A DNA stretch of 34,671 nucleotides from a virus. Under the pieces are notes generated by a model. The model saw only the letters and a list, made by a program, of their open reading frames with translations. It did not search any database and was not told where the DNA came from. This document shows positions 7,581-31,923 of the stretch, piece by piece. Numbering within the stretch: the stretch's first letter is position 1; the number at the start of each line of letters is the position of its first letter. A program made the translations under genes and the position numbers. The stretch covers positions 1 to 34,671 of the IMG/VR virus record IMGVR_UViG_3300046321_000284; one strand, given 5' to 3'.

Positions 7581-7603
7581 ATCTGGGTCACTCCAATTTT
7601 TTA

Positions 7604-7715
7604 CACTACTACATTATAAGGTAGTGGTTGATAAATGGCAAAGCCCTTGCCATCATCGTTGCATCAAATGATTCAACGACTACCCCAAAAGGTAGGTCTG
7701 CTCGCAGACCTTTTT
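7604..7715 (+). ncRNA. Structured leader or small RNA upstream of the 7742 gene
   Basis: The plus strand can fold as an outer stem GGTAGT (7620-7625) with ACTACC (7679-7684), enclosing a hairpin ATGGCAA-AGCCC-TTGCCAT (7635-7653) and a second hairpin CGTTG/CAACG (7657-7678). It is followed by GGTCTG-CTCG-CAGACC and a T-run (7695-7715), which looks like an intrinsic terminator. An upstream CACTAC can compete for GTAGTG. This could be a short RNA or an attenuating leader for the next gene. Inferred only from base pairing. Confidence 0.45.
7613..7641 (-). promoter_or_regulatory. Sigma70-like promoter for the minus-strand operon
   Basis: On the minus strand TTGCCA (complement of 7636-7641) is followed after exactly 17 bases by TATAAT (complement of 7613-7618). 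The expected start site near 7605 is about 25 bases before the ATG at 7580. phiKZ-type phages use their own polymerases, so use by host RNA polymerase would be unusual; a chance match is possible. Confidence 0.45.
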
Positions 7716-12124: not shown

Positions 12125-12202
12125 TAGCCTATGCCGGCTATATAAAACATATGTTTTGGGTTACTTGCTAAAGCAAATGCTGTTGATCTTGGCCGTTTTT
12201 TT
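12125..12202 (+). terminator. Probable 3' end of noncoding RNA 1
   Basis: CGGCTA (12135-12140) can pair with TGGCCG (12190-12195), followed by seven T. Inside are the palindrome AAAACATATGTTTT (12144-12157) and a TTGC/GCAA hairpin (12165-12176). A competing local hairpin TAGCC/GGCTA (12125-12140) has TATGCC in its loop. The long loop makes this a weaker terminator call than the others. Confidence 0.4.
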
Positions 12203-12469: not shown

Positions 12470-12479
12470 TTTTATGCCG
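12438..12479 (+). terminator. Strong terminator with TTTTATGCCG upstream of the DNA polymerase
   Basis: GGAGTGATGGGGA (12438-12450) pairs perfectly with TCCCCATCACTCC (12457-12469) around GGCAAC, followed by TTTTATGCCG. The TATGCCG part may also serve as the late-type promoter of the DNA polymerase gene 73 bases further on. Confidence 0.82.
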
Positions 12480-12551
12480 TATTTTTTTGTGGCCTCAAGA
12501 AAAACTACCCACTCTCTGAATCTACTGAGCTAAACCTGCCTGAGAAAAAAC

Positions 12552-16064: not shown

Positions 16065-16084
16065 AATGCAGAATTTTATAGCAC

Positions 16085-16100
16085 TGTACTATACAAATGA
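16085..16100 (+). promoter_or_regulatory. TGTACTATA-type promoter, variant, for chimallin
   Basis: TGTACTATACAAATGA, 13 of 16 bases like the three identical copies at 18077, 24420 and 29654. The A-tract that precedes the other copies is missing here. It leaves a leader of about 90 bases before the ATG. Confidence 0.55.
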
Positions 16101-16137
16101 GGACCTGCACACAAATGCATGCGCCTTAACCTTTCTT

Positions 16138-16155
16138 GCTGTGATGCATCACAGC
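16138..16155 (+). promoter_or_regulatory. Perfect 18-base palindrome in the chimallin leader
   Basis: GCTGTGATGCATCACAGC lies 35 bases before the start codon. As RNA it is a 7-pair hairpin with a UGCA loop; as DNA it is a symmetric operator candidate. No ribosome binding site is obvious between it and the ATG. Confidence 0.5.
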
Positions 16156-16190
16156 CTCTTCCCCGGCATTTTCTAGAAAGCCAAAGAATC

Positions 16191-17945
16191 ATGACGACGC
16201 AAATTCCCGAACTCGATCTGCTCGGCTCCACATTCGGCCCCGCCGCGATCAGCCAGATCGACGGCCTCATGCAGCAGGCCCACCAAGCCGTGAAGAAGGC
16301 ATGCGATGAGCTGAGCCTGCCCGCCGTCGGCATCCTCTCGACCATGGTCTATGACCACCGCGCACAAGGCCAAGGCGCCATCAGCGCCATCTACGTGGTT
16401 CTGGCACGCGATACCCGCCGTGCTGTCGCCCCGATCTGCCTGGCTGCCACGAGCAGCGAACTGGCCCCGCAGATGGCCGAGCACGCCGGCACCCGGTACG
16501 AAGTCCCCACCTTCGCCGCCGATGCCCTGGACGACGTGCTCTATCAGCTGCTGGGCAATTACGCCCAAGTCACGCTGAAGGCGCAAGATCCGGCCGTGAG
16601 CGTCGGCGTCGATCGTGCGCTGATCGTCCAAGCTGCTCCGATCTTCCGCTGGGATGACGAGGCGGCCGTCAAGCGCCTGGTCGCCGATGTGGTCATCAAG
16701 CTCTCCAACCGGCTGACGCAGAAGGTCGAACTCGACCTGTCCAAGCTGACCCGCAGCCAAATGCTGGTCAGCACGGTGGAAACCGGCGGTCACACGCTGG
16801 TGGCCTCCGACGGTCGCCCGGTCCGCTCGGATCTGTCGGTCCGCACGACGGTGAACTCGACCCAGAGCCAGCCGAAGAACGGCAGTCGCAACAGCGGCGC
16901 GGTCTCACGTCCGCTGGGTGAAGTCCACGGCTACATCGACTTCTTCCACGTCGGCCGTCAACCCAACCCGCATGGTCAGCTCGATGCCAGTGGTCGACTG
17001 GTTCTCCAGAACCCGTTCCAGGCTCGGATGGTGATCACGCAAGTGACGCCGCGCATCAACGCTGGTCTGGCTGGCGTGATGCTGACCCTGGCATCGATGA
17101 CGGCTGTGGCGACGAACGGTTCGTGGATGGGCAGCCTGGCCAATCGCTCGGGCGGCCAGAAGTTCCGCGACATCGGTTCGCTCAACATCGAAGGCAACCT
17201 GGCCCAGGACACCAGCGGCTACGGTGAAAAGGTCATCACGCAATCGGCCAGCTTCAGCAACCAGGAACTGCACCAGTTCCTGTCGGCAATGCTGCGCCCG
17301 AGCCTGATGTTCTCGATCCGGCTGAGCCGCGGCTCGGTGGACTCGCTGCATCTGGACGTGCTGACGCGGGCCGCGCAAGGCGATCCGCGCTCGATCGACC
17401 TGGTGCGTGCGGCATGTGACGAACTGACGGGGGGTGCGTTCTCGAACCACTTCAAGTCGGGCTCGATCTTCGTGTCGAACGGCCGCGAGCCGGAGTACAC
17501 CCATCAGGGCTACTTCACCGACAGCAACGGCGTGCTGCGTGACATCGCTGAGCTGGACTACCTGACGCTGGTGGGCATGGCTCCCACGGACAAGACGCTG
17601 GGTCGTCGCTACGCCGAGACCGTGCGGCGTGACGAGCTGCCGTCGTCGATGCGCATGGCTGCGCGCAAGAACCTCATCACCGAGGTGTGCGGCGCGCAGA
17701 TCACGATCACCGATCACGATCGTGTCGCCACGTTCACCAACGACCTGATCTGGTCGCTGATGAAGAGCCTCGAAGAAACGCGTGTGGCACGTCAAGTGAA
17801 CGCCACCAACCCGTTCGCAGACTACGTCGGCGAGCTGCAAGCACCGACCTGGCTCAACCAGGCTGTGTACGACAGCAACGCCGGCAACGTGTGGCAGAAC
17901 ACGCGCGGTCCGGGCAACTTCCAAGCCAGCCTGTCGGCCTGGTAA
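16191..17945 (+). CDS. chmA: Probable chimallin, phage nucleus shell protein (phiKZ gp54 type), 584 aa
   Basis: Chimallin builds the protein lattice that encloses replicating phage DNA and shields it from host nucleases. The call rests on position (directly upstream of the RNA polymerase beta' N gene, as phiKZ gp54 precedes gp55), on size (family members are about 600 residues), and on signs of very high expression: GC content and codon choice differ sharply from all neighbours, with almost only C- or G-ending codons. The sequence starts with a short segment (MTTQIPELDLLG), has a central alpha/beta body, and a flexible tail ending GPGNFQASLSAW that could make lattice contacts. I prefer ATG 16191 over 16119, since the longer version would translate the leader palindrome. 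A major capsid protein is the main alternative. Confidence 0.78.
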   Translation: MTTQIPELDLLGSTFGPAAISQIDGLMQQAHQAVKKACDELSLPAVGILSTMVYDHRAQGQGAISAIYVVLARDTRRAVAPICLAATSSELAPQMAEHAGTRYEVPTFAADALDDVLYQLLGNYAQVTLKAQDPAVSVGVDRALIVQAAPIFRWDDEAAVKRLVADVVIKLSNRLTQKVELDLSKLTRSQMLVSTVETGGHTLVASDGRPVRSDLSVRTTVNSTQSQPKNGSRNSGAVSRPLGEVHGYIDFFHVGRQPNPHGQLDASGRLVLQNPFQARMVITQVTPRINAGLAGVMLTLASMTAVATNGSWMGSLANRSGGQKFRDIGSLNIEGNLAQDTSGYGEKVITQSASFSNQELHQFLSAMLRPSLMFSIRLSRGSVDSLHLDVLTRAAQGDPRSIDLVRAACDELTGGAFSNHFKSGSIFVSNGREPEYTHQGYFTDSNGVLRDIAELDYLTLVGMAPTDKTLGRRYAETVRRDELPSSMRMAARKNLITEVCGAQITITDHDRVATFTNDLIWSLMKSLEETRVARQVNATNPFADYVGELQAPTWLNQAVYDSNAGNVWQNTRGPGNFQASLSAW

Positions 17946-17958
17946 GCTGGTCCGAAGA

Positions 17959-17992
17959 TAACCGTCATAGAGACTCGTCTTTGCGACGGTTA
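17959..17992 (+). other. Hairpin in the chimallin 3' untranslated region
   Basis: TAACCGTC (17959-17966) pairs with GACGGTTA (17985-17992), enclosing AGAC/GTCT. With the following terminator it could protect the 3' end of a highly expressed mRNA. The TAACCGTCATA part also occurs before the palindrome at 2261. Confidence 0.5.
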
Positions 17993-18001
17993 CAGCAAAC
18001 T

Positions 18002-18032
18002 GGGAGGGGCTCGCGCCCCTCCCTTTTATGCC
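18002..18032 (+). terminator. Terminator after chimallin, with TTTTATGCC
   Basis: GGGAGGGGC and GCCCCTCCC form nine pairs around a TCGC loop, followed by TTTTATGCC. Confidence 0.88.
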
Positions 18033-18061
18033 TTAGCTTTCTTTTTTTTTGCACTCACTGC

Positions 18062-18092
18062 AAAAAACCATGGACATGTACTATAGAGATGA
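18062..18092 (+). promoter_or_regulatory. TGTACTATAGAGATGA promoter for the beta' N gene
   Basis: AAAAAACCA, six bases, then TGTACTATAGAGATGA. The element at 24405-24435 has the same A-tract, the same spacing and the same core. It lies 55 bases before the start codon. Confidence 0.72.
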
Positions 18093-18147
18093 AGTGTATT
18101 CTTTATGATGCGCTTCACAATTGAAATCCTTTCACCGAGGCAACCCA

Positions 18148-19647
18148 ATGGGCGTCATTCTTCGAACCATCGACCAGCAAAAGTTGTATGAATCGATACA
18201 AGGGACTACAGGGGTAGTGATACTCAACGATGTCTTAACGGTCACGGAAGCAGACAGGGCAAAGGCACAACGCCTGACCATGCATGTTCACGAACGTGAC
18301 CTGATGACGAACGAAGCAACGTGTTTCTGCGAGAACCTTCGCACAACACGAAAGATCGGGATGATCTGCCCAGAGTGCAAAACTGCTGTGGCTGAGCCGT
18401 TCTCCAAGAAACTGAGGAGTCGAGTGTGGTTCCGTGCACCCGAGGGTACGCGTAGCCTGATGAACCCACACATTCTCGGCATGATCGCTGAGCACTTCAA
18501 GAAGAGTGGCTTCAGCTTCATCGAGTGGATTGTCAACCCGAGCTACACCACGAACAAAGAAGCCCGTCTGAGGGACTGTCAGACGCTTCTCGACCAAGGA
18601 ATCCAGCGCGGCTGGAATAACTTTGTCGACAACTTCGATCGCTACATGGGAATCATGTTCAGCAGTCGGCTGTTTCGAGACAAAGACGGGACTGACTTGA
18701 AAGAGTTACTGTCCCTCAAGCGTGATCAAATCTTCACGCAATTCATTCCACTGCCGAACAAGGCAACACTGATTGTGGAGAAATCCAACAGTGGTGTGTA
18801 TGTGGACAAAATCATCGCTGGTGCGATTGACGTTCTGAAAACAATCACAGGCATTGACACTCCGTTGTCGTCCTTGTCACCGAGACACAAGGAACGACGA
18901 GCTGCGACGGCGTTGTTGAGGCTGAGTGAGTTCTACACTGACTTCTTCAAAGATTTCTTCGCATCGAAGAGTGGCGTGTTTCGCCGGCACGTTTACGGCA
19001 CACGAGGTGACTTGACCATGCGGTCGGTGATTGTGTCGATCACTGTGGCACACGAATACGACGAGCTACACTTGCCCTGGGCGCCGTCAGTCGTGACGTT
19101 CAAGCTGCACCTGACCAACAAGCTGATGAAGCTTGGGTACACGGTGTTGGAGATCGAGGAAATCCTCAGGACCGTGGTGAAACGGCCTGCGGCTGGGAAT
19201 CAGAAGCATCACGAATGGCACCAACTCATTCGCGTCTTGCTCGACGAGCTGATCGCGGAAGCGCCTGGCGGCTACTTGCCATTCTACTGGAATCGAAACC
19301 CTATCCTTGGGCGAGCCAGTTGTGAGCTGATGCGCGCGACACGGATCAAGGACGATCCGGATGATCAAACCATCGGGATGAGCATTCTGGCCGTTACTGG
19401 CTTCAATGCTGACTTTGATGGAGACCAAATGGCTGGCGGTTATATCGCTGACGTTTGGATGGCTGATCGAATGAAGAATTTGAGGCCCCACAAAAACATG
19501 TTCGATCCGATGAAGCCTCGCCAGCTCAACCGAATGATCAACATGCCCAAGCCTGTAGCAGCCACCATTGATTCCTGGTGGAGATGGCCGAACGAGCGTC
19601 CGCCGAATCAAGAGGAAATTGCATTCGCCTCCCAATTCGAATGCTAA
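18148..19647 (+). CDS. Non-virion RNA polymerase beta' subunit, N-terminal part (phiKZ gp55 type), 499 aa
   Basis: Carries the catalytic centre of the phage late RNA polymerase: NADFDGD at residues 420-426 holds the magnesium ions. A four-cysteine site near the N-terminus (C59, C61, C74, C77) corresponds to the beta' zinc-binding domain. The chain stops shortly after the active site, as in phiKZ where beta' is split into two proteins; the C-terminal part is encoded at 31936-33954. ATG 18148 has GAGG 7 bases upstream and is preferred over the upstream TTG at 18121. Adjacent upstream is chimallin. The catalytic aspartates are intact, so it should be active within the multisubunit complex. Confidence 0.92.
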   Translation: MGVILRTIDQQKLYESIQGTTGVVILNDVLTVTEADRAKAQRLTMHVHERDLMTNEATCFCENLRTTRKIGMICPECKTAVAEPFSKKLRSRVWFRAPEGTRSLMNPHILGMIAEHFKKSGFSFIEWIVNPSYTTNKEARLRDCQTLLDQGIQRGWNNFVDNFDRYMGIMFSSRLFRDKDGTDLKELLSLKRDQIFTQFIPLPNKATLIVEKSNSGVYVDKIIAGAIDVLKTITGIDTPLSSLSPRHKERRAATALLRLSEFYTDFFKDFFASKSGVFRRHVYGTRGDLTMRSVIVSITVAHEYDELHLPWAPSVVTFKLHLTNKLMKLGYTVLEIEEILRTVVKRPAAGNQKHHEWHQLIRVLLDELIAEAPGGYLPFYWNRNPILGRASCELMRATRIKDDPDDQTIGMSILAVTGFNADFDGDQMAGGYIADVWMADRMKNLRPHKNMFDPMKPRQLNRMINMPKPVAATIDSWWRWPNERPPNQEEIAFASQFEC

Positions 19648-19679
19648 AGACCGTGAACTGAAAACAAGAAGGAACCCGC

Positions 19680-20321
19680 ATGCAACTTTCTACATGGGCA
19701 CCTAACGGACAAGCGGAATTCAATGCCCTGCTTTATCCGCAGCAGCACCCGAATGTAAAGAGATATTTGGAAAGGCAATACGAAAATCTCCGGGTTGGGG
19801 CGCCAGAATACGAATTCTACATGCAGGCCAAGGTCGTGCATGATTCGTACTACAGTGATCAAGCGGCTGAATTTGCGCGACAAGTCGCACTCAGTGCTGC
19901 ACAACCACACAACAAGGAACACGTGGGCGCCACGTACATCTTACCGCTTTTTGAACTGCAGGAATTCCAAGAAGCGGGCCCGGCAATGCAGCGCTGGGCG
20001 ATGGCCAATCCTGTTGTGCGTGAACGCTGGCATGGAAATCTATGCGACGGTTGGAGTGACACTTACTTCGACCAGCATCCGGGTGATGTTGGAAAGACGC
20101 ATTACGACTTCATGATGGTCACCGACGGGGTTGTGCAGACCTCCGTAAATGAAAAGGATGAGGCTGGTTGGTCCTACACCAACTACTCGTTTGAAATGAT
20201 GGAGGGCGATCGCCCGCTGACAATCGCTGAAAAGAGTGATCTGCAAGCGTGCTGGTTGGCGATTGAAGAACTCATGAAAGGTGAGATCGACCCAACCAGC
20301 GTCTATGGTGAGCGGTTGTAA
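19680..20321 (+). CDS. Unrecognised protein, 213 aa
   Basis: ATG with AGAAGGA about 7 bases upstream, 32 bases after the beta' N gene, so it is probably in the same transcript. The protein is soluble, rich in Tyr, Trp, Glu and Gln, with several helices and no motif I recognise. The transcript ends at the strong hairpin at 20355-20392. Confidence 0.8.
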   Translation: MQLSTWAPNGQAEFNALLYPQQHPNVKRYLERQYENLRVGAPEYEFYMQAKVVHDSYYSDQAAEFARQVALSAAQPHNKEHVGATYILPLFELQEFQEAGPAMQRWAMANPVVRERWHGNLCDGWSDTYFDQHPGDVGKTHYDFMMVTDGVVQTSVNEKDEAGWSYTNYSFEMMEGDRPLTIAEKSDLQACWLAIEELMKGEIDPTSVYGERL

Positions 20322-20354
20322 CCTGATCATTTGAGCCAAGCACCATAAGACTAT

Positions 20355-20400
20355 GCTGCAGGTGGGCTGGATACGCTCCACCCACCTGCAGCTTTATGTC
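20355..20400 (+). terminator. Terminator with TTTATGTC
   Basis: GCTGCAGGTGGG (20355-20366) pairs with CCCACCTGCAGC (20381-20392), followed by TTTATGTC. The next gene starts 34 bases later, so TATG here may also act as a promoter. Confidence 0.82.
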
Positions 20401-20433
20401 TGAGGTTCTTTTTTCTACACAAGAAAGGCACTT

Positions 20434-20832
20434 ATGACTGCAATTGTTGTCCCCACTTTCACGACACAAGGCTGGGTTACCGATTTACCAAGCAAGGTGG
20501 ATTCTTTGCTGGCCCATGCATTGGTCGCCGAAGACATTCAAACCTACTGCTACCCTGGTGAGATTTGCTCGATCACCAAACAACTCCAACTCACTGGAAA
20601 CAAAGCAATCCCTTCGGCGAGAATGCTAGAGGATCGCTTAGGAACATTTTTCAAACGACATTTCGACAGCGCCCGAGTCAGCGTGGAAGTGGCGGATGAG
20701 GATGATTTAAGCAAGACTGCAAAGTTGCGGATCTTGATTGAAGTCAACGACAATGGCGTCAAGCGGGTGGTGGGTAAGCTACTCGAAAGCAGTGACGGTA
20801 AAGTCAAGCAGTTCATCGACTTAAATAACTAG
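20434..20832 (+). CDS. Unrecognised protein, 132 aa
   Basis: ATG with AGAAAGG 5-6 bases upstream. The N-terminal 80 residues are mixed helix and turn; the C-terminal 50 contain two clear strands (KLRILIEVND and VKRVVGKLLES) joined by an NG turn. The general pattern (small alpha/beta, strand pair at the end) resembles small phage baseplate proteins, but no motif confirms that. It lies between two hairpins. Confidence 0.75.
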   Translation: MTAIVVPTFTTQGWVTDLPSKVDSLLAHALVAEDIQTYCYPGEICSITKQLQLTGNKAIPSARMLEDRLGTFFKRHFDSARVSVEVADEDDLSKTAKLRILIEVNDNGVKRVVGKLLESSDGKVKQFIDLNN

Positions 20833-20849
20833 CACGACATATCTAGTGT

Positions 20850-20870
20850 AGCGGCATGTCTGCTGCTTTT
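20850..20870 (+). terminator. Weak terminator or attenuator
   Basis: AGCGGCA and TGCTGCT form seven pairs (one G-T) around TGTC and are followed by TTT. It lies between the 20434 and 20895 genes. Confidence 0.45.
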
Positions 20871-20894
20871 AGGTACGTTCATCAGGAGTGAGAA

Positions 20895-21512
20895 ATGGAA
20901 CTGAGTAAACTCAAGTCAGTGGTTGCAGAAGACACGCTCGACCCGATCACGCGTTCCCGGCGCAAAGAGCTGGCGCAGCGCGTACAGTTTGCGCGAAAAC
21001 ACATGAATGAAGGCAATCAAGCCCTCATTCGCACATTCCCTGAATTCCTGTTCAAGCGGGATTTCTTGGATTGGATTTCTGGGCAACCCGTCACCTATCC
21101 CGACCAACGCATGGCGATGTGGATCGAACTCACGGGAAGTCCCTGGATGCCGATCAACCTGACGGGTCCGGACGGCAAGGTCACGATTCAAGTGCCTGCC
21201 CTGCACAATTCGTTCAAATTCCAGCCGCAAAACAACCTGGAGAACCGCGGCAGTGCTGGAGCTGGCGCAATGCGCGCGCACCTGTACGCGCAGGTTTCGC
21301 CCACCCAGGCCAACACGATGTTGGAAAACGTGCTCTATGAGCGCGTGCTGAACATCGTGGCGCCCGAAGAAGACATCGCGGAGCATGAGAAATGGCGAAA
21401 GCTGTACGCTCACTTCGGTATCGATATCGACAGCATCGGCAAGGTCAAGCCGAATGAAGCAAAGCCGGCTGCCGATAAGCCGAGTGATGATGGTTTGGAG
21501 ATTGAGTGGTAA
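20895..21512 (+). CDS. Unrecognised protein with acidic tail, 205 aa
   Basis: ATG with AGGAG 6 bases upstream. A basic, helical N-terminus is followed by an alpha/beta core (WIELTGSPWMPINLTGPDGKV) and an Ala/Lys/Pro linker that ends in the acidic tail SDDGLEIEW. Such a short acidic, aromatic-ended tail is also used by ssDNA-binding and replication partners to recruit other proteins. Its stop overlaps the start of the SbcD-like gene by 7 bases, so the two are translationally coupled and may act together in DNA metabolism. No family was recognised. Confidence 0.78.
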   Translation: MELSKLKSVVAEDTLDPITRSRRKELAQRVQFARKHMNEGNQALIRTFPEFLFKRDFLDWISGQPVTYPDQRMAMWIELTGSPWMPINLTGPDGKVTIQVPALHNSFKFQPQNNLENRGSAGAGAMRAHLYAQVSPTQANTMLENVLYERVLNIVAPEEDIAEHEKWRKLYAHFGIDIDSIGKVKPNEAKPAADKPSDDGLEIEW

Positions 21513-22636
21513 AGCGAGTTCGTTGGGGTTTGGTGAGTGATGTTCATCTGTTCCACAAGAACACCCCGACTACACACACGCTGGCTGGGTTAGACAAGTA
21601 CATCACAAACAGCGACTTTCTATCGACGATCGACATTCTTGCGATTGTTGGGGATTTATTCGACGATCAAGAAAGCTTTGAGTCCGAAGACGCGCAGGCC
21701 GTGCTTGTCTGGATTTCAAAGATGCTCTGGCTGTGCTCTAGACACAACGTGATACTGTTGGTTCTTGAAGGGACTATTAGCCACGACTGGGGGCAGTCGA
21801 CAAACATCATGACAATCCACGAGATTCTCAAGCAGAATCCTGAGTATCGTGGGAACGTCAGGTATGTGAAGACAGTCAGTATTGAAAGAATTGAGCCGTT
21901 CGGTATAGACGTGCTCTACATTCCGGACGAAGTACACCACGACAATGCGGACACTTGGTCGGATGTGGTGGAACTCATGCAGTCCAAGCAACTGACCGCT
22001 GTGGATGTCGCGCTGATGCATGGGATGTTCAAATACCAAGCACCGCCAATGACCAAGCCACATGCGACGCATGATGAAGCTAACTACTTGGGCATTGTTC
22101 GGTACTTCATCTCCATCGGACACATTCACCAATATTCAAGCTACGAGCACATCTACGCTCAAGGCTCGTTTGATCGTGGTTGTCATGGTGATGAAAAACC
22201 AAAGGGGTTCTTGAGAATTTGCATGGGTGGTGGTGAGCCACTGGATGTTGAATTCATCGAGAACAAAACGGCTAAGAAGTACGTCACTTACACGTGGCTT
22301 GGCACTGATCTTGAAGATGGGTTCCAATACATCTTCAAGAAAATAATGAAGCTGCCGGACTACAGCCATGTGAGAATCAAAACGACGCGAAGCAACCCGA
22401 TGTACCAAGCATTGGGTGTACTCAAAGATAGATGGCCTTTTATTCATTGGAAGATCGAAGCCAATGACGAGAAGGAAGTCGCAAGCGATGTAGCAATTGT
22501 CGAGGAAGACGAGTACACCGCACTGGTGATCAACTCTACTTCTATTTCAAAGCTGGTGAGTGACCGTTTGCTCAAGCAGCAGCATTCCCCTGGAATGATC
22601 GAAACCATTCTGAATAAACTCGATGAGGTGATTTAA
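21506..22636 (+). CDS. SbcD/Mre11-like metallophosphoesterase (nuclease subunit), 376 aa
   Basis: Probable DNA end-processing nuclease. Metal-binding motifs appear in the right order: D12-x-H14 in SDVH, G49-D50 in GDLFDD, H93-D94 in GTISHD, an LMHGMF histidine near residue 170 and GHIHQY near 206. The third motif is normally GNHD; here the asparagine is replaced and two residues are inserted. The length fits SbcD. The GTG start has GGAG 5 bases upstream and overlaps the previous stop. The usual ATPase partner SbcC is not in this window. The C-terminal 100 residues would be the SbcC-binding or capping domain. Confidence 0.88.
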   Translation: MVKRVRWGLVSDVHLFHKNTPTTHTLAGLDKYITNSDFLSTIDILAIVGDLFDDQESFESEDAQAVLVWISKMLWLCSRHNVILLVLEGTISHDWGQSTNIMTIHEILKQNPEYRGNVRYVKTVSIERIEPFGIDVLYIPDEVHHDNADTWSDVVELMQSKQLTAVDVALMHGMFKYQAPPMTKPHATHDEANYLGIVRYFISIGHIHQYSSYEHIYAQGSFDRGCHGDEKPKGFLRICMGGGEPLDVEFIENKTAKKYVTYTWLGTDLEDGFQYIFKKIMKLPDYSHVRIKTTRSNPMYQALGVLKDRWPFIHWKIEANDEKEVASDVAIVEEDEYTALVINSTSISKLVSDRLLKQQHSPGMIETILNKLDEVI

Positions 22637-23490
22637 TGGACTACGCGGCCCTGTCCAAGAGGACGATGAGTTCTTATCCGCTGTCGATCGGGACGGCAAT
22701 TTCTTTTGAGTCATTTGGGATGGGGCCCAATCCGGCGTATGATGCGGCCAGACCCATTCCAAATCACGTCGAGTTGGCGAAGTATGACCAGTTCTGGGTC
22801 AATCTGCTGACGCTGTTTAGAAACATGATGGGAGCTATTGCTCCACAAGGATCGGGCTATAGCATCGATGCGGCAGATCTGGCCGAAGCATTGTTGCAGG
22901 AAGCTGAAACAATTGTGGAGATTGCAAAGCAGTACAGCCCATCAACAAAAGTGATATTCTATAGCTCAAATTACGAAAGCATGAAGAGCAAGTATCCGCA
23001 TGCAAGAATACGCGGAGACATCACTGAAAACCAGAAGCTGTACACGGCGCATGCTTCGAAGACTCTGTCGGCGCTCTATAAGCGTCGGCCGAAATCTTTG
23101 GACGTTCGACACTTCACCCGCTTGCTCGAACCCACTCAACGAGGGTCGGCGTTGATCTTGACGAACTACGCTTACGATCTGCTGGCGTGGAAGAAATTCG
23201 AAACATTAGATCTTCTAGAAAGTCACACGGGTGTTTTGAAAACCCGTGCGCTTTGGTACACCAAATTCCTCAGTGCGGATGTCACTGCAAGAATACCACT
23301 GAATAAGATGTTCCTGCAAGTATTTGGGGACAGTACCTTATTCTTTGCGTTTGATTCGCGTTCTCGCAAAGACGTAGTGGAGCTGGCTGAGAAGCACAAA
23401 TGGACCTACGCAACCAGCGAAACAACCATCAGAATGAGCTTAGGTGAGTTGAAAAACCCACTGTTGGTATCTATTCTGAAAAGCATGTAG
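22636..23490 (+). CDS. Unrecognised protein coupled to the SbcD-like gene, 284 aa
   Basis: The ATG overlaps the stop of the SbcD-like gene (TAATG), with AGGTGA upstream: tight translational coupling. The protein has a Rossmann-like mix, with VIFYSSNYESM, SALILTNYAYDLL and STLFFAFDSRSRKD as strand-turn segments. No Walker loop or catalytic motif is visible. The neighbours (nuclease before, SSB-like protein after) suggest a role in replication or repair. Unknown family. Confidence 0.78.
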   Translation: MDYAALSKRTMSSYPLSIGTAISFESFGMGPNPAYDAARPIPNHVELAKYDQFWVNLLTLFRNMMGAIAPQGSGYSIDAADLAEALLQEAETIVEIAKQYSPSTKVIFYSSNYESMKSKYPHARIRGDITENQKLYTAHASKTLSALYKRRPKSLDVRHFTRLLEPTQRGSALILTNYAYDLLAWKKFETLDLLESHTGVLKTRALWYTKFLSADVTARIPLNKMFLQVFGDSTLFFAFDSRSRKDVVELAEKHKWTYATSETTIRMSLGELKNPLLVSILKSM

Positions 23491-23549
23491 AAAATACCCT
23501 ACCGCACCATTAGGTGTATCCCCTTACCATCCAAGAAACGGAGTCCCCA

Positions 23550-24320
23550 ATGGATGACCAGACCCAAGAAGCACCCAAAAAGAGCATTTTCACGAGTGCA
23601 TCGATGCGTCTTCGTGCACCCTGCCCGACTGCTCCTGGGAAGACCAGTGAATTCAGCCTGGACTTTTACAAGGGCAACCCCCGCCTGAAAGTTCGCACGG
23701 GCGACCCGGCTGACGAAGGCAACACCTACGGCATGATCGAAGCGCCGATGGACATCAGCACACTGCTGACCCTCAGCCAACTCATCCGTGACCTGGTGGC
23801 CACTGGCGAAAAGAAGAAGTTCAAAGTCACCTGCAACACCGGGAAAGACCCGGTGCTGCTGTCCTCCATTATCCTGGGGCGACACGACGATGGCCGGATC
23901 TACATCGGTATCCGCTCGGCCGATACTTCCCGTCCTGTGATCGAGTTCGTGTTCGCGCTGACGAATCAGCGTTATCACGCGATCTACGGGCAAGATGGCA
24001 AGGAAATGCCGATCCCCGAACTGAGCCAGCGCACGGCGCTGGCATGGTGCGTGGTGTTCGAAACAATGGCCACCAACATGGCTATGCAAACCTACGAAGC
24101 ACCCAAGCCGCCTGAAGGTGGTTTCAAGAAGGGTGGCTTCAATCGTGGTGGTCAAGGTGGGGGGTTCAATCGTGGCGGTGGGCAAGGCGGGTTCAATCGT
24201 GGCGGTGGCGGTGGTTACAACCGTGGCGGTGCTGGCGGCAATTATGGTGGCCGACCTGCCAATAGTGGCGGTGCTGGGCAAGGTGGTCAAATGGCCGATG
24301 ATGGTGACATCACGTTCTAA
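23550..24320 (+). CDS. Probable single-stranded DNA-binding protein with Gly-rich tail, 256 aa
   Basis: The C-terminus MADDGDITF closely imitates the SSB tip DDDIPF that recruits repair and replication proteins. Before it, residues about 188-245 are a Gly/Arg/Asn low-complexity linker with GGFNRGG three times and GGYNRGG once. Residues 1-180 are beta-rich (SEFSLDFYKGNPRLKVRTG; KKFKVTCN), compatible with an OB-type fold. ATG 23550 has CGGAG upstream and is preferred over 23514. The gene is GC-richer than its neighbours, in line with high expression. It follows the nuclease pair and ends in a strong terminator. The fold itself is not proven. Confidence 0.72.
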   Translation: MDDQTQEAPKKSIFTSASMRLRAPCPTAPGKTSEFSLDFYKGNPRLKVRTGDPADEGNTYGMIEAPMDISTLLTLSQLIRDLVATGEKKKFKVTCNTGKDPVLLSSIILGRHDDGRIYIGIRSADTSRPVIEFVFALTNQRYHAIYGQDGKEMPIPELSQRTALAWCVVFETMATNMAMQTYEAPKPPEGGFKKGGFNRGGQGGGFNRGGGQGGFNRGGGGGYNRGGAGGNYGGRPANSGGAGQGGQMADDGDITF

Positions 24321-24353
24321 TTGACGAGAGGTCAACTAGAGGAGTAGCTAGTA

Positions 24354-24398
24354 GTACGGGTGTGTTTGGTTACACACCCGTACTCGGCATTTATGCCG
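24354..24398 (+). terminator. Terminator with TTTATGCCG after the SSB-like gene
   Basis: GTACGGGTGTGT (24354-24365) pairs with ACACACCCGTAC (24372-24383) around TTGGTT. It is followed by CGGCATTTATGCCG, itself a palindrome. A small TTGAC/GTCAA hairpin precedes it at 24321-24335. Confidence 0.85.
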
Positions 24399-24404
24399 TA
24401 TTGT

Positions 24405-24435
24405 AAAAAACCACAGTGATGTACTATAGAGATGA
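24405..24435 (+). promoter_or_regulatory. TGTACTATAGAGATGA promoter for the gp68-like gene
   Basis: AAAAAACCA, six bases, TGTACTATAGAGATGA, identical in all fixed positions to 18062-18092. It lies 49 bases before the start codon. Confidence 0.72.
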
Positions 24436-24484
24436 CAAGCTAAAAGCCATCTCGCCCCCCACCTTCGTAAAAAAGGAAACCTTC

Positions 24485-26038
24485 GTGCAAATTGACTTGA
24501 TCTCGACATCCGTACGCGGAAGCACAGTAGTGGTCTCTCATGGGACTGAGAGCATTGCGTGGCGCGTCAGTGAACGCGGCGACGAGCGGGTTCTGCTTGA
24601 TGAGTTGGAGCCGACATTTCAACTATGCAACGAGATCTACGCAAAGATGCCTGGCGCCACACAGGCGGCGATCTTTGCTGTGATGCAGCGAATCAAAGTG
24701 CTGATCAGTGAAGAGTTTCGAACTGAAGCACTGATCCACGGTATCCGTCTACTGGCTGTCGAGCTGATGAACGCGCATGACTATGCGTTCATTCGCCGAG
24801 AAATCGGTTACGACATCCGGATCATCGTGCCGACAAAGTGCGATGTGGACTACATTGATAGCGATGAAAAACCAGGTAGTCGTGCGCAGACATTCACGCG
24901 CGGAGATTACCTGGATCAGGTCGCCGCGAGCGTCCTGATAAAACCAATGATCCCGATTTGGCTGGAGTTCGCTCACTACACCAAGGGTGAGACTGGACGT
25001 GGGTCGCGGGAAAGCTATGCGTGGGGGTTGCTAAACCTCACGTACGTGCCTGATCTACCGGGAGTGACCAAGTTGAAGGAGTACATCCAGTGCTTCTTGC
25101 AGAAAACACCCTCGTCATTGTCGGTGATGGTCACGGGGGTCGGGACTGAGGACTACCCTGAGTTGCTGCTGGCCAACGTGATGGTCAACCGTGTTGCGTA
25201 TATTGATGCACTGAAAGCGAACGTCAATAGCAACGGAAAAGAAAGCAACGTCATCACCGGTATTTACTACTATATCCGCGGTGCAGCGGAAGGTGGGGGT
25301 GCGCAACGAACTGGGGCCAGCGTCAAAGAAAAGCGACCACCGACAGACTCGGACACAGGCGATAACCGGGGCTCTGTTCTTGAATCTTACAAGATGCAAG
25401 AAACCCTTGATCCTGGCATGGTCACGGCTTTGCGAGTAGAGGCCGACAACCTAGAGTTGATCTCCAGACGTTTGTTTGGGGAACTGGATGCCCACAAACA
25501 AAAGTTACTTGACATCTTCTTGGAACGAGCAGGTGAGCATGTCAACAGACACAAGCATGATTGCCAGACCATCATTGCGCAGTATGTATTGGCTGGTCTG
25601 ATCCCGTGCCGTGCTTGGTCAAATTACACGGAACCGCAAACTTGCAATCTGATCGCGATCGCACAGACGTGGTTGTGGGTTGAAAACTTTCAAGTGTTGG
25701 CTGCGCTGATAGGCGCATCCGCATTGGGGGACAATCACTCCACCTACATCAGCGGCATGACATCCAGAACGCGGATACCACAAACCCATTTGGACGAGAT
25801 CGAGAAGATCTTTCCGATGGCATTCGCTGAGAATGCGCAACGTGTGCGTCAAGTCAATCCCATCACGAAAGCGATCGACGCCTTGAACGACGGTCTCAGT
25901 GCTTGTGATTGGGAGATTCATTTAACCCCACAAATGACGGAGTTGTTAACCGGACATCCACAAATCAATACGCTGCAAACACCAAGCGACATCAAGAAAA
26001 CACTGGCGGAACTCATCATTCGCCTGAACAAACCCTAA
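24485..26038 (+). CDS. Probable fifth subunit of the non-virion RNA polymerase (phiKZ gp68 type), 517 aa
   Basis: phiKZ gp68 is a subunit without cellular relatives that is needed for promoter recognition by the late RNA polymerase. I assign this gene by order (gp68, gp69, gp70, beta C, beta' C are consecutive in phiKZ and match the next four large genes), by size (about 520 residues), and because it shares its promoter motif with the two RNA polymerase subunit genes. GTG 24485 with AGGAAA 6 bases upstream is the best start; the longer frame from 24416 would begin inside the promoter. The protein is mixed helical, with a charged loop near residues 285-315 (TGASVKEKRPPTDSDTGDN). No known domain is directly visible. 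Confidence 0.6.
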   Translation: MQIDLISTSVRGSTVVVSHGTESIAWRVSERGDERVLLDELEPTFQLCNEIYAKMPGATQAAIFAVMQRIKVLISEEFRTEALIHGIRLLAVELMNAHDYAFIRREIGYDIRIIVPTKCDVDYIDSDEKPGSRAQTFTRGDYLDQVAASVLIKPMIPIWLEFAHYTKGETGRGSRESYAWGLLNLTYVPDLPGVTKLKEYIQCFLQKTPSSLSVMVTGVGTEDYPELLLANVMVNRVAYIDALKANVNSNGKESNVITGIYYYIRGAAEGGGAQRTGASVKEKRPPTDSDTGDNRGSVLESYKMQETLDPGMVTALRVEADNLELISRRLFGELDAHKQKLLDIFLERAGEHVNRHKHDCQTIIAQYVLAGLIPCRAWSNYTEPQTCNLIAIAQTWLWVENFQVLAALIGASALGDNHSTYISGMTSRTRIPQTHLDEIEKIFPMAFAENAQRVRQVNPITKAIDALNDGLSACDWEIHLTPQMTELLTGHPQINTLQTPSDIKKTLAELIIRLNKP

Positions 26039-26066
26039 CCCACCCAAAAAAAAGAGAACCCGCAAC

Positions 26067-27449
26067 ATGTATCCTATCGCCAACCACTCCATGTACTCCG
26101 TCAACGGCGTCGAGATCGTTCGAATTCTGATCCAGACAGCCACGGAAATGGCACCCTCGTACACACGCCCCTACGTGGCCAATGTCACCGACGAAGCCCT
26201 TCAAGTGCTGATGTCGGACATCAATGGCAGCTCGGCTATCGTGCCGGGTACGGTTGCCACGGCAGCCGGCATGATTCTGCAGCCGAGCACAGCCGCGACA
26301 GGTGAAGTCCAGATCCCCCATGGCTGGCATACTCCGCGGTATCGCTTCGTGTTGTTCGCTCGACTGCACAAACACAACGCACCACCCGTGATGCAGGTGG
26401 TGAGTGGCTACACCGAATACAAAGGCGTCTCGCACACGGGGCGACTTGACCCGGAGATGTGTTTCTTCGTCAACGGGACTGACGTGTACACCGATACATC
26501 GTCGGGAGCGCATTCTCGTGCACTGGAATCCAGCCAAGTCTTGTACAGCTTGTCCGGGCAAGGGGTCGGTGATCCGAGTCGTGAATGTCTCCAGCGACCG
26601 CAAGATGTGCTGATGTACTTCAGCAGCGATCTCGACCCGACCATGGATTTCACCGGAAACACCACGAAGTTCCTGGGAACGGTACCGATCAAGAACCACA
26701 CGCGCCACAACTCTCCGGCACGCTACATGGCCGATTTGCTCTCGACAGCCAGGGCGGTTTCGAGCGAAGATGCGCTTTATGGTGCCCGTGAGCAGATCAG
26801 TGCGACCATGCATGCCAACCCGCTGATTCGAAACACGGCAGTCAGCCGTGACGGATTGATCGCGACGATCGCGGCGAAGAACGGCACCAACATGATGCGT
26901 GGTTACTTCACCATGAATGATCTCATGCTGTTGGACCCCAATGCACCCAACGTGGTGCATCCGATGAGCATGGAGATGAGCGGCGCGGGCGGACGAGACG
27001 GTATTGATTGGCGTTCTGAAGATCCCAGCACGGTGTTTGCCACGGTGATGGCTTCTGGTATTTCCTCATACATGCGCGACATGGGTGTTCACCAAATGCA
27101 CTTTGTCGTGGCAACAGGAGCCGAGCCGAACATCGTCACCTGTAACAGCCTGATGGCGCAATACGACTACTCCACCCAACTGGATCGTTGGAAGTTCATC
27201 GTGAATACCGAGCTGCTCACCGCTGCATCTCAGTGCTACCCGTACGGAACTTATGTGCGGGTGGATATGACGGTGGATTTGTTTGGCATCACCACGATTC
27301 ACATGTGGGTGGATGGGATTGCTGGTGAGATGATCTACAGCTGGCCGTCATTCTGCGACTCACTGAACTCACTGGCCATCAGCCGTGATCACTCTGGTGT
27401 GCAAAATCTGTACAACCAGATCGGCATTTGTCTGTCACAGGTTTCCTAA
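26067..27449 (+). CDS. Candidate phage-nucleus import factor (phiKZ gp69, Imp1/PicA type), 460 aa
   Basis: In phiKZ the gene between gp68 and gp70 is gp69, known as Imp1 and, in related phages, PicA, which selects proteins for import through the chimallin shell. This gene has the same place and is of suitable size. The sequence is soluble and alpha/beta, somewhat GC-rich, with frequent Met and small residues and no membrane segment or catalytic motif. It begins 28 bases after the gp68-like stop, with AGAGAA upstream, so the genes form one operon. The functional name depends on synteny alone. Confidence 0.5.
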   Translation: MYPIANHSMYSVNGVEIVRILIQTATEMAPSYTRPYVANVTDEALQVLMSDINGSSAIVPGTVATAAGMILQPSTAATGEVQIPHGWHTPRYRFVLFARLHKHNAPPVMQVVSGYTEYKGVSHTGRLDPEMCFFVNGTDVYTDTSSGAHSRALESSQVLYSLSGQGVGDPSRECLQRPQDVLMYFSSDLDPTMDFTGNTTKFLGTVPIKNHTRHNSPARYMADLLSTARAVSSEDALYGAREQISATMHANPLIRNTAVSRDGLIATIAAKNGTNMMRGYFTMNDLMLLDPNAPNVVHPMSMEMSGAGGRDGIDWRSEDPSTVFATVMASGISSYMRDMGVHQMHFVVATGAEPNIVTCNSLMAQYDYSTQLDRWKFIVNTELLTAASQCYPYGTYVRVDMTVDLFGITTIHMWVDGIAGEMIYSWPSFCDSLNSLAISRDHSGVQNLYNQIGICLSQVS

Positions 27450-27459
27450 ACCGTGACCA

Positions 27460-27477
27460 GGGGTGCTCAGGCACCCC
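27460..27477 (+). other. Intergenic hairpin between the gp69-like and gp70-like genes
   Basis: GGGGTGC-TCAG-GCACCCC, without a following T-run, so it is more likely an mRNA processing or stability element than a terminator. Confidence 0.55.
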
Positions 27478-27500
27478 GCCCTCTTCTCTCGAAAGCATCT

Positions 27501-29171
27501 ATGGAACAGACTACCAATCCAACACGTGAAATCCCGCCCGGTGACGAGCCTCTGACGAAGAACAAAGTGTGGGTGGCACTGGATGACATGCTGACACAGT
27601 GCTCTTTCTTCAGGAAGGAATCCAAGCTGGTATATCATCCCAGCGAGCAGCGCCCATACGAGATCGACGACAAGGCGCTGGTGATCCCTACGCTGAATCC
27701 GAAGATTCGCAATGATGCCAACTTCATGATGTTCAACCCGCTGATCGACGGGGGTGGTGGCGTCAACAAGTGCGTGGACTTGCTCATGACCAACATGGGG
27801 AAGACACTGCATGTGCGCATGCTCCAGTTCATCAGCGAGTGCATCAGTTTGGGTGTGAACACTGGCAGTCATGCGCAATTCGTGTCTACCCAGTATGACA
27901 TCCTTCAAATTCTGAAAGATGTTGACCAAACCCTGATGGATAACTGGCTGAAGGTTTTGCAAAAGCGCACCTTCAGCCAAGAAGCAGCATGCGTGTCTTT
28001 CCATCTGCGTCGCAATGGAAACGTACGTGGGAAAAACTACGGTCGAGTCTGTGTGGCCAGGTTTCCGTTCTACGAGGTCTGTGCCAAGGGAGAGCGGCGC
28101 ATCGCTGGGGTTTCTTTTCGCAAGAAGGATTTCGAGACCTTCAAGAAGCTCTTCGAGTATGTCTTCCCTGGTCTGAACGATCTGGAACGGTGGTCGTTTG
28201 GCATGAACGGCATGAGCAGTGTGCAAGCCAAGGCACTGACTGTTGGCTTCCGTGAAGTGGCTACCGCCATCAACGAAGTCACAACGATGCTGGCCGATCG
28301 AATGGCGATGCCCGAGAAGTGCCTGACCAATCTGGATTGGGTGGGCACCATTCTGAGCATCGAAAACCCAGACCTGCTGGCAGACCTGCATGCATTGCCG
28401 ACCATGCTGGTCTCGAAAGAAACAACAGCGGTGACACCGGTTGCCGCTCCGGCGATTATTCCGCCGAAGCGCATGGGTGAAATCCCTCCTGCTCCAGCAA
28501 TCATTCCACCTCCCGAAAAGAAATTCATCAACCAACAAGTAGCACGCCCGCCCGCTCCATCAACTCCTGTGCGAGCAGCAACACCCATGACTGAAACAAC
28601 CACTTCGCCTGCTGAGAAGACCGACGGGATCAGTCTGACCGAGCTTCTGAAGAAACGGGCGACAACTACGGTGATGGCTCCCTCGGTCCACCCGCAATCG
28701 ACAGCTGGCGCTGCACGGATGACTGTCGATGCATCAGGACAAAGTTGGGTAGTACATCCCGACGGTCGAATGGTGGCACTGGTTACGGGTGCTGTGAATT
28801 TACCCGCCGCTGCTCCCCAAGCGCCTGTGATTGATGCCACAACGCCGGTCGACCAAGGTCCAGACGGACGGCATTACTTCCGGACGAACATGGGTCCCGT
28901 TCCTGCACGATGGGAAAACAACCGTTGGGTTCCGGCTGGTCCTCCAGTCCAGAACACGCTACCGCAAAATGGGTCACTGCCACCGACCCATCAAGTCATG
29001 CGTCAGCCTGCTTGGGCAGCGACAAACAGTGTCACGACACTCGGATCATCACTGCCACCGGCTTCTACGGGCTGGGGTGCTCCTGTTAATCCGAATGTGT
29101 CAACTGGTTGGCTACCTTCGGCTCCGGCTGCAGCAATCAACCGAGGTGGATCGGGCTGGTACAACCAGTAA
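27501..29171 (+). CDS. gp70-like protein with long disordered Pro/Ala/Thr-rich tail, 556 aa
   Basis: The first 310 or so residues look globular and mostly helical (LLMTNMGKTLHVRMLQF; FKKLFEYVFPGL). From about residue 310 to the end the chain is Pro/Ala/Thr/Gly-rich low complexity with repeated short motifs (AAPAIIPP twice, PPAP, WGAP, GWLPS) and ends in GGSGWYNQ. By gene order it corresponds to phiKZ gp70, whose function I do not know for certain; a role in RNA or condensate binding near the phage nucleus is conceivable given the tail. ATG 27501 is preferred, since the upstream GTG at 27453 would translate through a hairpin. The palindrome terminator follows. Confidence 0.65.
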   Translation: MEQTTNPTREIPPGDEPLTKNKVWVALDDMLTQCSFFRKESKLVYHPSEQRPYEIDDKALVIPTLNPKIRNDANFMMFNPLIDGGGGVNKCVDLLMTNMGKTLHVRMLQFISECISLGVNTGSHAQFVSTQYDILQILKDVDQTLMDNWLKVLQKRTFSQEAACVSFHLRRNGNVRGKNYGRVCVARFPFYEVCAKGERRIAGVSFRKKDFETFKKLFEYVFPGLNDLERWSFGMNGMSSVQAKALTVGFREVATAINEVTTMLADRMAMPEKCLTNLDWVGTILSIENPDLLADLHALPTMLVSKETTAVTPVAAPAIIPPKRMGEIPPAPAIIPPPEKKFINQQVARPPAPSTPVRAATPMTETTTSPAEKTDGISLTELLKKRATTTVMAPSVHPQSTAGAARMTVDASGQSWVVHPDGRMVALVTGAVNLPAAAPQAPVIDATTPVDQGPDGRHYFRTNMGPVPARWENNRWVPAGPPVQNTLPQNGSLPPTHQVMRQPAWAATNSVTTLGSSLPPASTGWGAPVNPNVSTGWLPSAPAAAINRGGSGWYNQ

Positions 29172-29205
29172 CCGGGTAGTGACTTCCCCATAAGGGACGT
29201 GCAAC

Positions 29206-29236
29206 ATAAATGGGAGGCCCGGCCTCCCATTTATGC
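29206..29236. terminator. Bidirectional terminator, 31-base palindrome (copy 2)
   Basis: Base for base the same as 2261-2291, again between two converging genes (stops at 29171 and 29253). Followed on the plus strand by CCTCACC and a T-run. Confidence 0.9.
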
Positions 29237-29252
29237 CTCACCTTTCTTTTTT

Positions 29253-29597
29253 TTAAATGAGCAAACCTTCTTGAGAATACTGCTGAAGGATACGAATTTT
29301 ATTGACAGCACCCTCACTGGGGAGGTACAACATTAATTTATCGGGAGTGAACTCACTTGGGTGGAGCATGGAGTTCACACGCATGATGATCCAATGAAAT
29401 TTGACCGCCACGCCTATCTGTAAAAGATATCTGTAAAAGTCCCCGTAGTGTGGGTGGGCTTTTTCTTTGTCAATGGCCACCACTTTTGTGTCGGGGTGGG
29501 CTCGAAGGAACTCCAGGTGCGCACTCAAGACATCGAAGAACTCTTTCTTGAAGAAGATATCATCGTCTACCGCAGCCATCATGCTGTCAATCTTCAT
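29253..29597 (-). CDS. Small unrecognised minus-strand gene inside the RNA polymerase cluster, 114 aa
   Basis: ATG 29597 has AGGAG 7 bases upstream; a GTG three bases earlier is the alternative start. The protein is alpha/beta with a hydrophobic middle (LLQIGVAVKFHWIIMRV) and a histidine/lysine patch (KEKAHPHYGD). It interrupts an otherwise conserved plus-strand order and is closed off by the palindromic terminator, which suggests a later insertion or a strain-specific gene. Function unknown. Confidence 0.7.
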   Translation of the reverse strand: MKIDSMMAAVDDDIFFKKEFFDVLSAHLEFLRAHPDTKVVAIDKEKAHPHYGDFYRYLLQIGVAVKFHWIIMRVNSMLHPSEFTPDKLMLYLPSEGAVNKIRILQQYSQEGLLI

Positions 29598-29638
29598 CAC
29601 AAAACTCCTAAAATTTGCCGCAAGATCATTATGATTGG

Positions 29639-29669
29639 AAAAATATACAGGCGTGTACTATAGAGATGA
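29639..29669 (+). promoter_or_regulatory. TGTACTATAGAGATGA promoter for the beta C gene
   Basis: AAAAATATA, six bases, TGTACTATAGAGATGA. The core is identical to the copies at 18077 and 24420; the A-tract differs in two bases. It lies 52 bases before the chosen start codon. Confidence 0.72.
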
Positions 29670-29721: not shown

Positions 29722-31923
29722 ATGGTAAAGCAAGACTATACACCTAAGAAGACGTACACCGCAGAAGAGCTTGAGAATTACTACAAAAGCCCAGACGGCG
29801 AGAAAGTTCAACTGCACCCGTCGCTGCTGAGTATCACCAGCATGACTCCGATTCCGCGAGCACTGAGTTCCAGTCGGGCTCAGATGTTCAATGCGCACAT
29901 CGGCGCATGCGCGGTTGTGAAAGGTGCCAACGTCCGCACCCTCCAAACGGGTGTTGAAATGGATGTGGGGAAGTACACATTCAACATTAAGATGCCTTTC
30001 GACGGCATCGTGCTGGCTGTACTGGAGCGTTACAGCAAACAAACACTCGCAAAAGATCGAATCGAGGAGTCCCCTGAGATTGTGGTGGTAGTGGAGAATG
30101 CAGAGACCGGTGAGGTTGATGCAATCGTTCTGCCGAAGTATTGCAGCCATCACACTTACTTCGGGTTCAAGTACCGCCATGGACCAGGCATGAGCATGCT
30201 GGTCCCCAAGATGGGTATCCCGAAAGGGACCGTCTTCTTGGAGTCGCCGAACGTGACGGAAGAAGGCGACTACATGTTTGGTGCTGAGGTGAATGTTGCT
30301 TTGGCAACGCTGCCTGCTGGCGCTGAGGATTCGGTTTTGTTTCGGCGAGGGGCGCTGAAGAAATTCACGTACAACGTATACTACAGTGTGGTGGTGGAAT
30401 ACGGTCGTGACGACTACCCACTCAACTGCTACGGGAATGACGAAGTCTACAAACCTCACCCGGACATTGGTGAGTACATTCGGCCAGACGGCTTGCTCAT
30501 GGCCACGCGCTCGTTTGAGCCGAGCATCCTTGCGCCAGCGCTGATGAGTGTGAAAGCTTGTCAGAAAGTTGATCCAATATTCGACAACACGATCTACGTT
30601 CAAGGTCATGGTGGGAAGGTGATTGACATCATCGTCCACCACGATCAAGATACGGTTAGTCGTGCTCCCTTTGTTGAACAACAAGGGATGAAATACCACA
30701 ACAGTCGCTTACAGTTCTGTGAGAAACTGATTGCGTTGGATGAAGAACTCACCCGGCGAATCGGCACGAACCTCAAGCGCCTACCAAAGTACCATTCGCT
30801 GGTGGTGGAAGCCATCAGCGTCGCGAACCCCAGACGAACGGAACGAGAAGGCGCTGGTCGCACTGGCGCACGTGTTCGAAAGATTCACCGGCAAGACAGG
30901 ATTGCTCGGTTCTTCACGGAATTCATCATCGAGTACGAGCTGACTCCGGGAATCGGATCAAAGGTCACTGGTGCACACGGTGACAAAGGGGTGAACTGCC
31001 AGATCGCCGAAGATCATGAAATGCCCATGGACAGCGATGGAAACATTGCAGACGTGGTGTTCGATCCGGCTGGCACCGCAAACCGAATGAATCCGTCACG
31101 CACCTACGAGCAGTATTTCACTGGTGCTTCTCGTGATGCTCGGAAACATATTTGCAAGGAACTTGGAGTTCCTGTTGACGAAAAGAAGCATGTTGCTGCA
31201 TCGAAGTTGATGCGCATGCCAATTGAAAAGGTCCGGTGGGCACTCGACTACTGCATGGGGCTGCACCGAATCATCAACCCAACCATTGGCAAGTGGTATG
31301 ACGAAGGGGTCATTGGCAGAGACCCGGTGGATTACGTTGCCACCATCATTTCGTCCGGATTGACAATCCACATGCCCACGGACAATCAAAAGGAAATCAC
31401 GGACACTGTCCTTGAAATTGAAAAGACATGCTATCGTCCGGTGTATGGTCCGATCACGTACATCGGCAACAGCGGCAAGCGTGTGACCACTAAGCGACCC
31501 ATTCGAATTGGGGGCATCTACTTGATGTTGCTCGATAAAGACGGTCGGGATGGCAATGCGTGTGGTATCAGTCGGCGGAACCATTCAGGTGTGCCAGCTC
31601 AGATGCGCAAGGACATGAAGCGCAGCTCCCCCACACGCGAGCAAGCAGTGCGGTGCTGGGACGAAGCCGGTATTCGTGTGGTGTCCAGTTACTGTGGTGG
31701 AGATGTGGCTGCTGAAGTAATTGACCGCAATAACAGCTACCAGTCAACTCTGGCGCTGGCGTTGAATATCATCAAGGCAGACAAGCCTAGTTACATCCAA
31801 CGTGTGGTGGATCGAAGTGTGGTTCCGATTGGTGGCGCTGCACCGCTTCAATTGGTGAAGCACATTTGTGAGTGTGCGGGCTTTGAGTTTGCCTACATTC
31901 CACACAACTACCAAACAAAATAA
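29722..31923 (+). CDS. Non-virion RNA polymerase beta subunit, C-terminal part (phiKZ gp71-73 type), 733 aa
   Basis: Residues 52-80 (RAQMFNAHIGACAVVKGANV and on) correspond to the beta block that ends in LVGTGME. GDKG at 420-423, in GSKVTGAHGDKGV, and the following DIVxxPxGxxxRMN-type stretch (DVVFDPAGTANRMN) are the beta hallmarks near the active site. The start at 29722 (GGAAG 8 bases upstream) is chosen over ATG 29674 and 29635, which lie at or within the promoter. In phiKZ this gene is interrupted by a self-splicing intron with an endonuclease gene; here the frame is continuous. The beta' C gene follows after 12 bases. Confidence 0.92.
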   Translation: MVKQDYTPKKTYTAEELENYYKSPDGEKVQLHPSLLSITSMTPIPRALSSSRAQMFNAHIGACAVVKGANVRTLQTGVEMDVGKYTFNIKMPFDGIVLAVLERYSKQTLAKDRIEESPEIVVVVENAETGEVDAIVLPKYCSHHTYFGFKYRHGPGMSMLVPKMGIPKGTVFLESPNVTEEGDYMFGAEVNVALATLPAGAEDSVLFRRGALKKFTYNVYYSVVVEYGRDDYPLNCYGNDEVYKPHPDIGEYIRPDGLLMATRSFEPSILAPALMSVKACQKVDPIFDNTIYVQGHGGKVIDIIVHHDQDTVSRAPFVEQQGMKYHNSRLQFCEKLIALDEELTRRIGTNLKRLPKYHSLVVEAISVANPRRTEREGAGRTGARVRKIHRQDRIARFFTEFIIEYELTPGIGSKVTGAHGDKGVNCQIAEDHEMPMDSDGNIADVVFDPAGTANRMNPSRTYEQYFTGASRDARKHICKELGVPVDEKKHVAASKLMRMPIEKVRWALDYCMGLHRIINPTIGKWYDEGVIGRDPVDYVATIISSGLTIHMPTDNQKEITDTVLEIEKTCYRPVYGPITYIGNSGKRVTTKRPIRIGGIYLMLLDKDGRDGNACGISRRNHSGVPAQMRKDMKRSSPTREQAVRCWDEAGIRVVSSYCGGDVAAEVIDRNNSYQSTLALALNIIKADKPSYIQRVVDRSVVPIGGAAPLQLVKHICECAGFEFAYIPHNYQTK

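Follow-up and report, generated by a model that had tools for sequence, protein, structure and literature searches.

Which RNA polymerase reads the short element that recurs ahead of RNA polymerase subunit genes in this DNA, and does the element define a promoter class of its own? The window, that is, the whole stretch of 34,671 bases analyzed here (IMG/VR record IMGVR_UViG_3300046321_000284), is a fragment of a phage genome and is without the virion polymerase genes. Judging from its sequence, the source is an uncultivated, giant, phiKZ-like phage of the nucleus-forming group (Chimalliviridae), and a deeply branching one among these phages. Homologs of phiKZ gp54 (chimallin), gp55, gp68, gp71-73 and gp74 were present in the same gene order as in relatives, and four of the proteins matched chains A-D of 7ogp, the solved structure of the phiKZ non-virion RNA polymerase (nvRNAP):

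16191..17945, + strand: chimallin, phiKZ gp54 homolog (PHROG 4795, E 3e-50; alignment)
18148..19647, + strand: nvRNAP subunit, phiKZ gp55 homolog (7ogp_A, E 8e-76)
24485..26038, + strand: nvRNAP fifth subunit, phiKZ gp68 homolog (7ogp_B, E 3.5e-28)
29722..31923, + strand: nvRNAP beta C-terminal part, phiKZ gp71-73 homolog (7ogp_C, E 6e-98)
31936..33954, + strand: nvRNAP subunit, phiKZ gp74 homolog (7ogp_D, E 6.5e-73)

The chimallin open reading frame opens at 16119, and the ATG at 16191 is equally compatible with the alignment. By its gp71-73 protein the phage was placed on a long branch next to two viruses, L021 and L092, both uncultivated, with a top identity of 43%. BLAST found no relative of the window at the DNA level, and no second contig of its phage turned up when viral contigs and the genomes of bacteria and archaea were scanned for exact patterns. 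A single-protein scan for close relatives was unsuccessful; an alignment-based search for relatives yielded 80 loci.

The element, the 16-mer TGTACTATAGAGATGA, occurs in exact copies at 18077-18092, 24420-24435 and 29654-29669, all on the + strand, which agrees with the preliminary description. The variant that it had reported ahead of chimallin is also there, as the two-mismatch form TGTACTATACAAATGA at 16085-16100 (+). When up to three mismatches were allowed, only one further match appeared, on the minus strand at 22107; 0.13 such matches are expected by chance, and none of 100 shuffles reached five. Within the window, TGTACTATA is confined to the four sites, all on the + strand, and a blind repeat search returned the same sites as the top direct-repeat family of the window (4 copies, 34 nt):

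16067-16100, 18059-18092, 24402-24435 and 29636-29669, + strand: copies of the 34-nt repeat

Numbered from the predicted start, the layout is W-tract(-29..-21)-TGTACTAT(-14..-7)-6N-G(+1). The core at -14..-7, including its two G/C bases, is conserved in all four sites, and the AT-tract at -29..-21 in three of them. Six bases upstream of the motif, the polymerase sites carry the A-tract AAAAAACCA (two sites) or the close form AAAAATATA (one site), just as had been claimed, whereas the chimallin copy has no A-tract and shows a GAATTTTA-like sequence in its position. Spacer and predicted start base read AGAGAT-G at three sites and ACAAAT-G at one. The gaps between motif and start codon are 55 bases (ATG 18148), 49 bases (GTG 24485) and 52 bases (ATG 29722), so the proposed distance of 49-55 bases to RNA polymerase subunit genes holds, and the genes concerned are those matching phiKZ nvRNAP (gp55, gp68 and gp71-73). 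The gp74-like gene has no motif or promoter of its own and, lying 12 nt behind gp71-73, needs none. The element precedes nvRNAP subunit genes and chimallin, and in relatives it is found at the same genes.

We consider it highly probable (about 0.9) that the four sites are phiKZ-like early promoters, which the multisubunit RNA polymerase injected together with the DNA is predicted to use as infection begins. This assignment is based on the anatomy of the sites (AT-tract, core, six-base spacer and G+1) and on a blind matrix test. For the latter, a weight matrix was trained on 40 sites upstream of gp54, gp68 and gp71 in 14 other phages, with no sequence from the window; it should be noted that some of these phages are related and that the best site per upstream region was picked with the starting guess TATATTAC-6N-G. 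When both strands of the window (69,268 positions) were scanned, the three exact copies took ranks 1, 2 and 3 (scores 12.6, 9.8 and 9.5), and the third-best score in 300 dinucleotide shuffles never exceeded 5.3. With the 8-base core masked they still occupied ranks 1-3; therefore, the A-tract and the start-site bases alone find the three copies, and this evidence is independent of the core pointed out in the preliminary description. The core, which is less AT-rich than that of relatives, scored poorly by itself (rank 535), and a matrix restricted to the upstream part ranked the exact copies 10, 1 and 3 and the chimallin site 469. Upstream of the same genes, nearly all of the 14 phages showed an AT-tract close to -29, followed by TATATTAC or a similar sequence at -14..-7, a six-base spacer, and TG with its G at +1. 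Across 77 relative loci, 226 strong sites were counted, of which 225 were oriented with the early genes. The resulting map is as follows:

16070..16099, + strand: variant predicted early promoter of chimallin, with AT-rich GAATTTTATA replacing the A-tract and the core TGTACTAT at 16085-16092; transcription predicted to start at G 16099; core and spacing the same as in the others, matrix rank 18
18062..18091, + strand: predicted early promoter for the gp55-like gene, with an A-tract at 18062-18070, the core TGTACTAT at 18077-18084 and the spacer AGAGAT; transcription predicted to start at G 18091; second of 69,268 in the matrix scan and again second when the core was masked
24405..24434, + strand: predicted early promoter for the gp68-like gene, with an A-tract at 24405-24413 and the core at 24420-24427; transcription predicted to start at G 24434; third in the matrix scan and again third when the core was masked
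29639..29668, + strand: predicted early promoter for the gp71-73/gp74 operon, with an A-tract at 29639-29647 and the core at 29654-29661; transcription predicted to start at G 29668; first in the matrix scan and again first when the core was masked
7595..7624, + strand: possible fifth early promoter, with the core TACATTAT at 7610-7617; transcription predicted to start at G 7624; fourth in the matrix scan, same place as early promoters of relatives

The chimallin copy is the weaker one, with core, spacing and G+1 present but no A-tract; it is accepted as a predicted early promoter because its core and spacing are identical to those of the other sites and the gene has an early promoter in relatives. 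The candidate at 7624, which precedes the gp43-50-like block, is uncertain. About 70 nt downstream of it, and ahead of the likely ATG near 7743, is the terminator-like hairpin AGGTCTGCTCGCAGACCTTTTTCTTT, and therefore this promoter may give a short RNA or be attenuated. The small-gene block at 7628-12571 (+) lies between a gp42-like gene and DNA polymerase; eight of its ten open reading frames had no PHROG match, one had a weak match and one a strong match (phrog_3235). No PhuZ-like tubulin was found in this block, which is its place in relatives.

The element closely resembles the early promoters of phiKZ, which carry TATATTAC, number about 28 per genome and are read by the virion polymerase (vRNAP). 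Core at -14..-7, six-base spacer, T-1 and G+1, A-tract near -29..-21 and position before gp54, gp68 and gp71 homologs are all shared, and TGTACTATAGAGATG of the window aligns with phiKZ TATATTACTAACATG without gaps, G+1 included. The window core TGTACTAT differs from TATATTAC by G-13, C-10 and T-7. Early promoters of the phiKZ type have a conserved AT-rich element, about 10 nt long and centered near -10. In both phiKZ and AR9, an AT-rich element is followed by six nucleotides and then the start (PMC5312081 for AR9); AR9 early promoters read AAATATATATTAT-6N-G or ...TATTAT-6N-G (PMC5312081). Compared with AR9 TATATTAT-6N-G, TGTACTAT-6N-G of the window shows two transitions and shares the spacing and start base, whereas AR9 is a uracil-DNA phage without a nucleus and its promoter element is wholly AT. 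Extended early promoters have also been published for OBP, N1M2, 201phi2-1 and EL (PMC7058600, Table 2); these are similar in their AT-tract, TTTYARR-like stretch, core and TG, but none of their cores (KATATTAT, TATATTAC and TACATTAT) has G as the second base. Considering these published promoters and the known early expression of the phiKZ polymerase genes, the element is a known promoter type with a diverged core, not a new class. One difference concerns gene organization. The gp55-like gene of the window has its own predicted promoter, whereas phiKZ has none directly before gp55; among the 14 relatives, only Burkholderia phage SURPRISE13 has an early promoter between gp54 and gp55 (start site 3746 of locus L011, +), and its core is TATATCAT, unlike that of the window. 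In phiKZ, the early promoter core at 120657 is followed, in third place, by gp123, the gene for the beta N-terminal subunit.

The divergence of the core was examined in about 90 relatives. G-13 and C-10 are present in all four window sites. In relatives, with the respective positions masked in scoring, A was found at -13 in 213 of 216 sites (T in 2 and G in 1), C-10 in 4 of 219 and T-7 in 74 of 218; the two nearest relatives, L021 and L092, have the core CATATTAC. As a repeated class, TGTACTATA was absent from 15 relative genomes (0-2 copies per genome, like a reversed control). Exact-pattern searches in viral contigs and in the genomes of bacteria and archaea gave only single matches per stretch, in unrelated sequence and near chance level, with poor matrix scores where scored. 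The differences in the core suggest that in the window lineage the virion polymerase may have shifted its specificity so that G-13 and C-10 are tolerated. This shift may concern only some promoters of the genome, because the candidate at 7624 has the more usual core TACATTAT. Thus, the promoter architecture appears to be kept, while the core has drifted at position -13, where A is nearly invariant elsewhere. The residues that read the -13 base might be revealed by comparing virion polymerase genes between this lineage and its relatives; we know of no report identifying them.

A non-virion polymerase cannot act until it has been synthesized, and its first copies need another polymerase. In the proposed scheme, the virion polymerase, with its shifted specificity, would bind the core and start transcription at G+1; the second polymerase, in the form of its subunits, and the shell protein would be made before the DNA enters the phage nucleus, inside which the second polymerase would take over. 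All nvRNAP subunits of phiKZ are made early (PMC4666361), and the chimallin gene is one of the earliest to be transcribed (PMC13282480). The anatomy and the blind matrix test give good support, as a prediction, to the suggestion that the injected virion polymerase might read the element. The idea of a coordinated class is well supported by the same evidence, but the class is the general early class of the family, which serves many early genes and is not specific to polymerase genes. What is gained is a testable map of predicted early promoters for an uncultivated, deeply branching nucleus-forming phage.

Other readings were weighed against this one. There might be two early types, with the G-13 core TGTACTAT serving the second polymerase and chimallin, and the ordinary TACATTAT, as at 7624, serving other early operons. 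If so, the virion polymerase or an injected partner would separate a nucleus-and-polymerase programme from the other early genes; we consider this unlikely. The proposal that the polymerase genes and chimallin have a separate class, for which the virion polymerase would be modified or aided by an extra factor, alongside ordinary promoters such as 7624, seems quite unlikely. The 16-mer is identical at three sites including the spacer while the flanks differ, whereas spacers vary within relatives, and the 7624 core is an ordinary one, equal to that of phage EL (PMC7058600). However, relatives use the general early promoter at the same genes, 7624 is only rank 4 and is followed by the hairpin, and a single site is not enough to establish a second class.

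It is very unlikely that the sites are promoters of the non-virion polymerase (late TATG or middle type), by which the polymerase genes would feed back on themselves. There is a loose resemblance between AAAAAACCA, with its center near -25, and AAanTTACc, the middle motif of phiKZ, with its center near -24 (PMC4666361), but an A-tract stands at the same place in early promoters of relatives. The A-tract was accordingly dropped as a middle-promoter element, its presence in those promoters explaining AAAAAACCA. The bases at -3..+1 are GATG (three sites) or AATG (one site), and TATG, which phiKZ nvRNAP strictly needs (PMC7598289), is absent; the preliminary description had rightly set the element apart from TATG late promoters. 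This feedback would also leave the first copies of the enzyme to another polymerase.

Recognition by the host as sigma-70-type promoters is highly improbable. TACTAT, with TG before it, is a weak -10 look-alike, but no -35/-10 hexamer pair with 16-18 nt spacing was found at any of the four sites, sigma-70-like sites in the region numbered 7 against 8.9 expected, and phiKZ-type phages resist rifampicin (PMC4666361, PMC13282480). Finally, a negligible chance is left for action in reverse, for although the reverse complement, TATAGTAC, differs from TATATTAC by a single base and a minus-strand gene (29253-29600) lies downstream at 29654 (minus-strand matrix score 0.2), transcription would run antisense into chimallin from 18077 and into a gp67-like gene from 24420, and the A-tract and G+1 fit the + strand only (scores 9.5-12.6).

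Directly before the predicted promoter of the gp55-like gene lies the following feature, which would explain the need for a separate promoter:

18002..18049, + strand: intrinsic-terminator-like hairpin (18002-18023) with downstream T-run

A 32-nt palindrome, CATAAATGGGAGGCCCGGCCTCCCATTTATGC, is identical at 2261-2292 and 29205-29236, 27 kb apart. Both copies are probably terminators, as each lies at a gene end and the 29205 copy is followed by a T-run; the T-run stretch behind the 18002 hairpin is 91% like that behind the 29205 copy. In addition, GGTGGCGGTGG-type repeats are present at 24180-24277, near the end of the gp67-like gene, and agree with the 'glycine rich protein' annotation of its 201phi2-1 relative.
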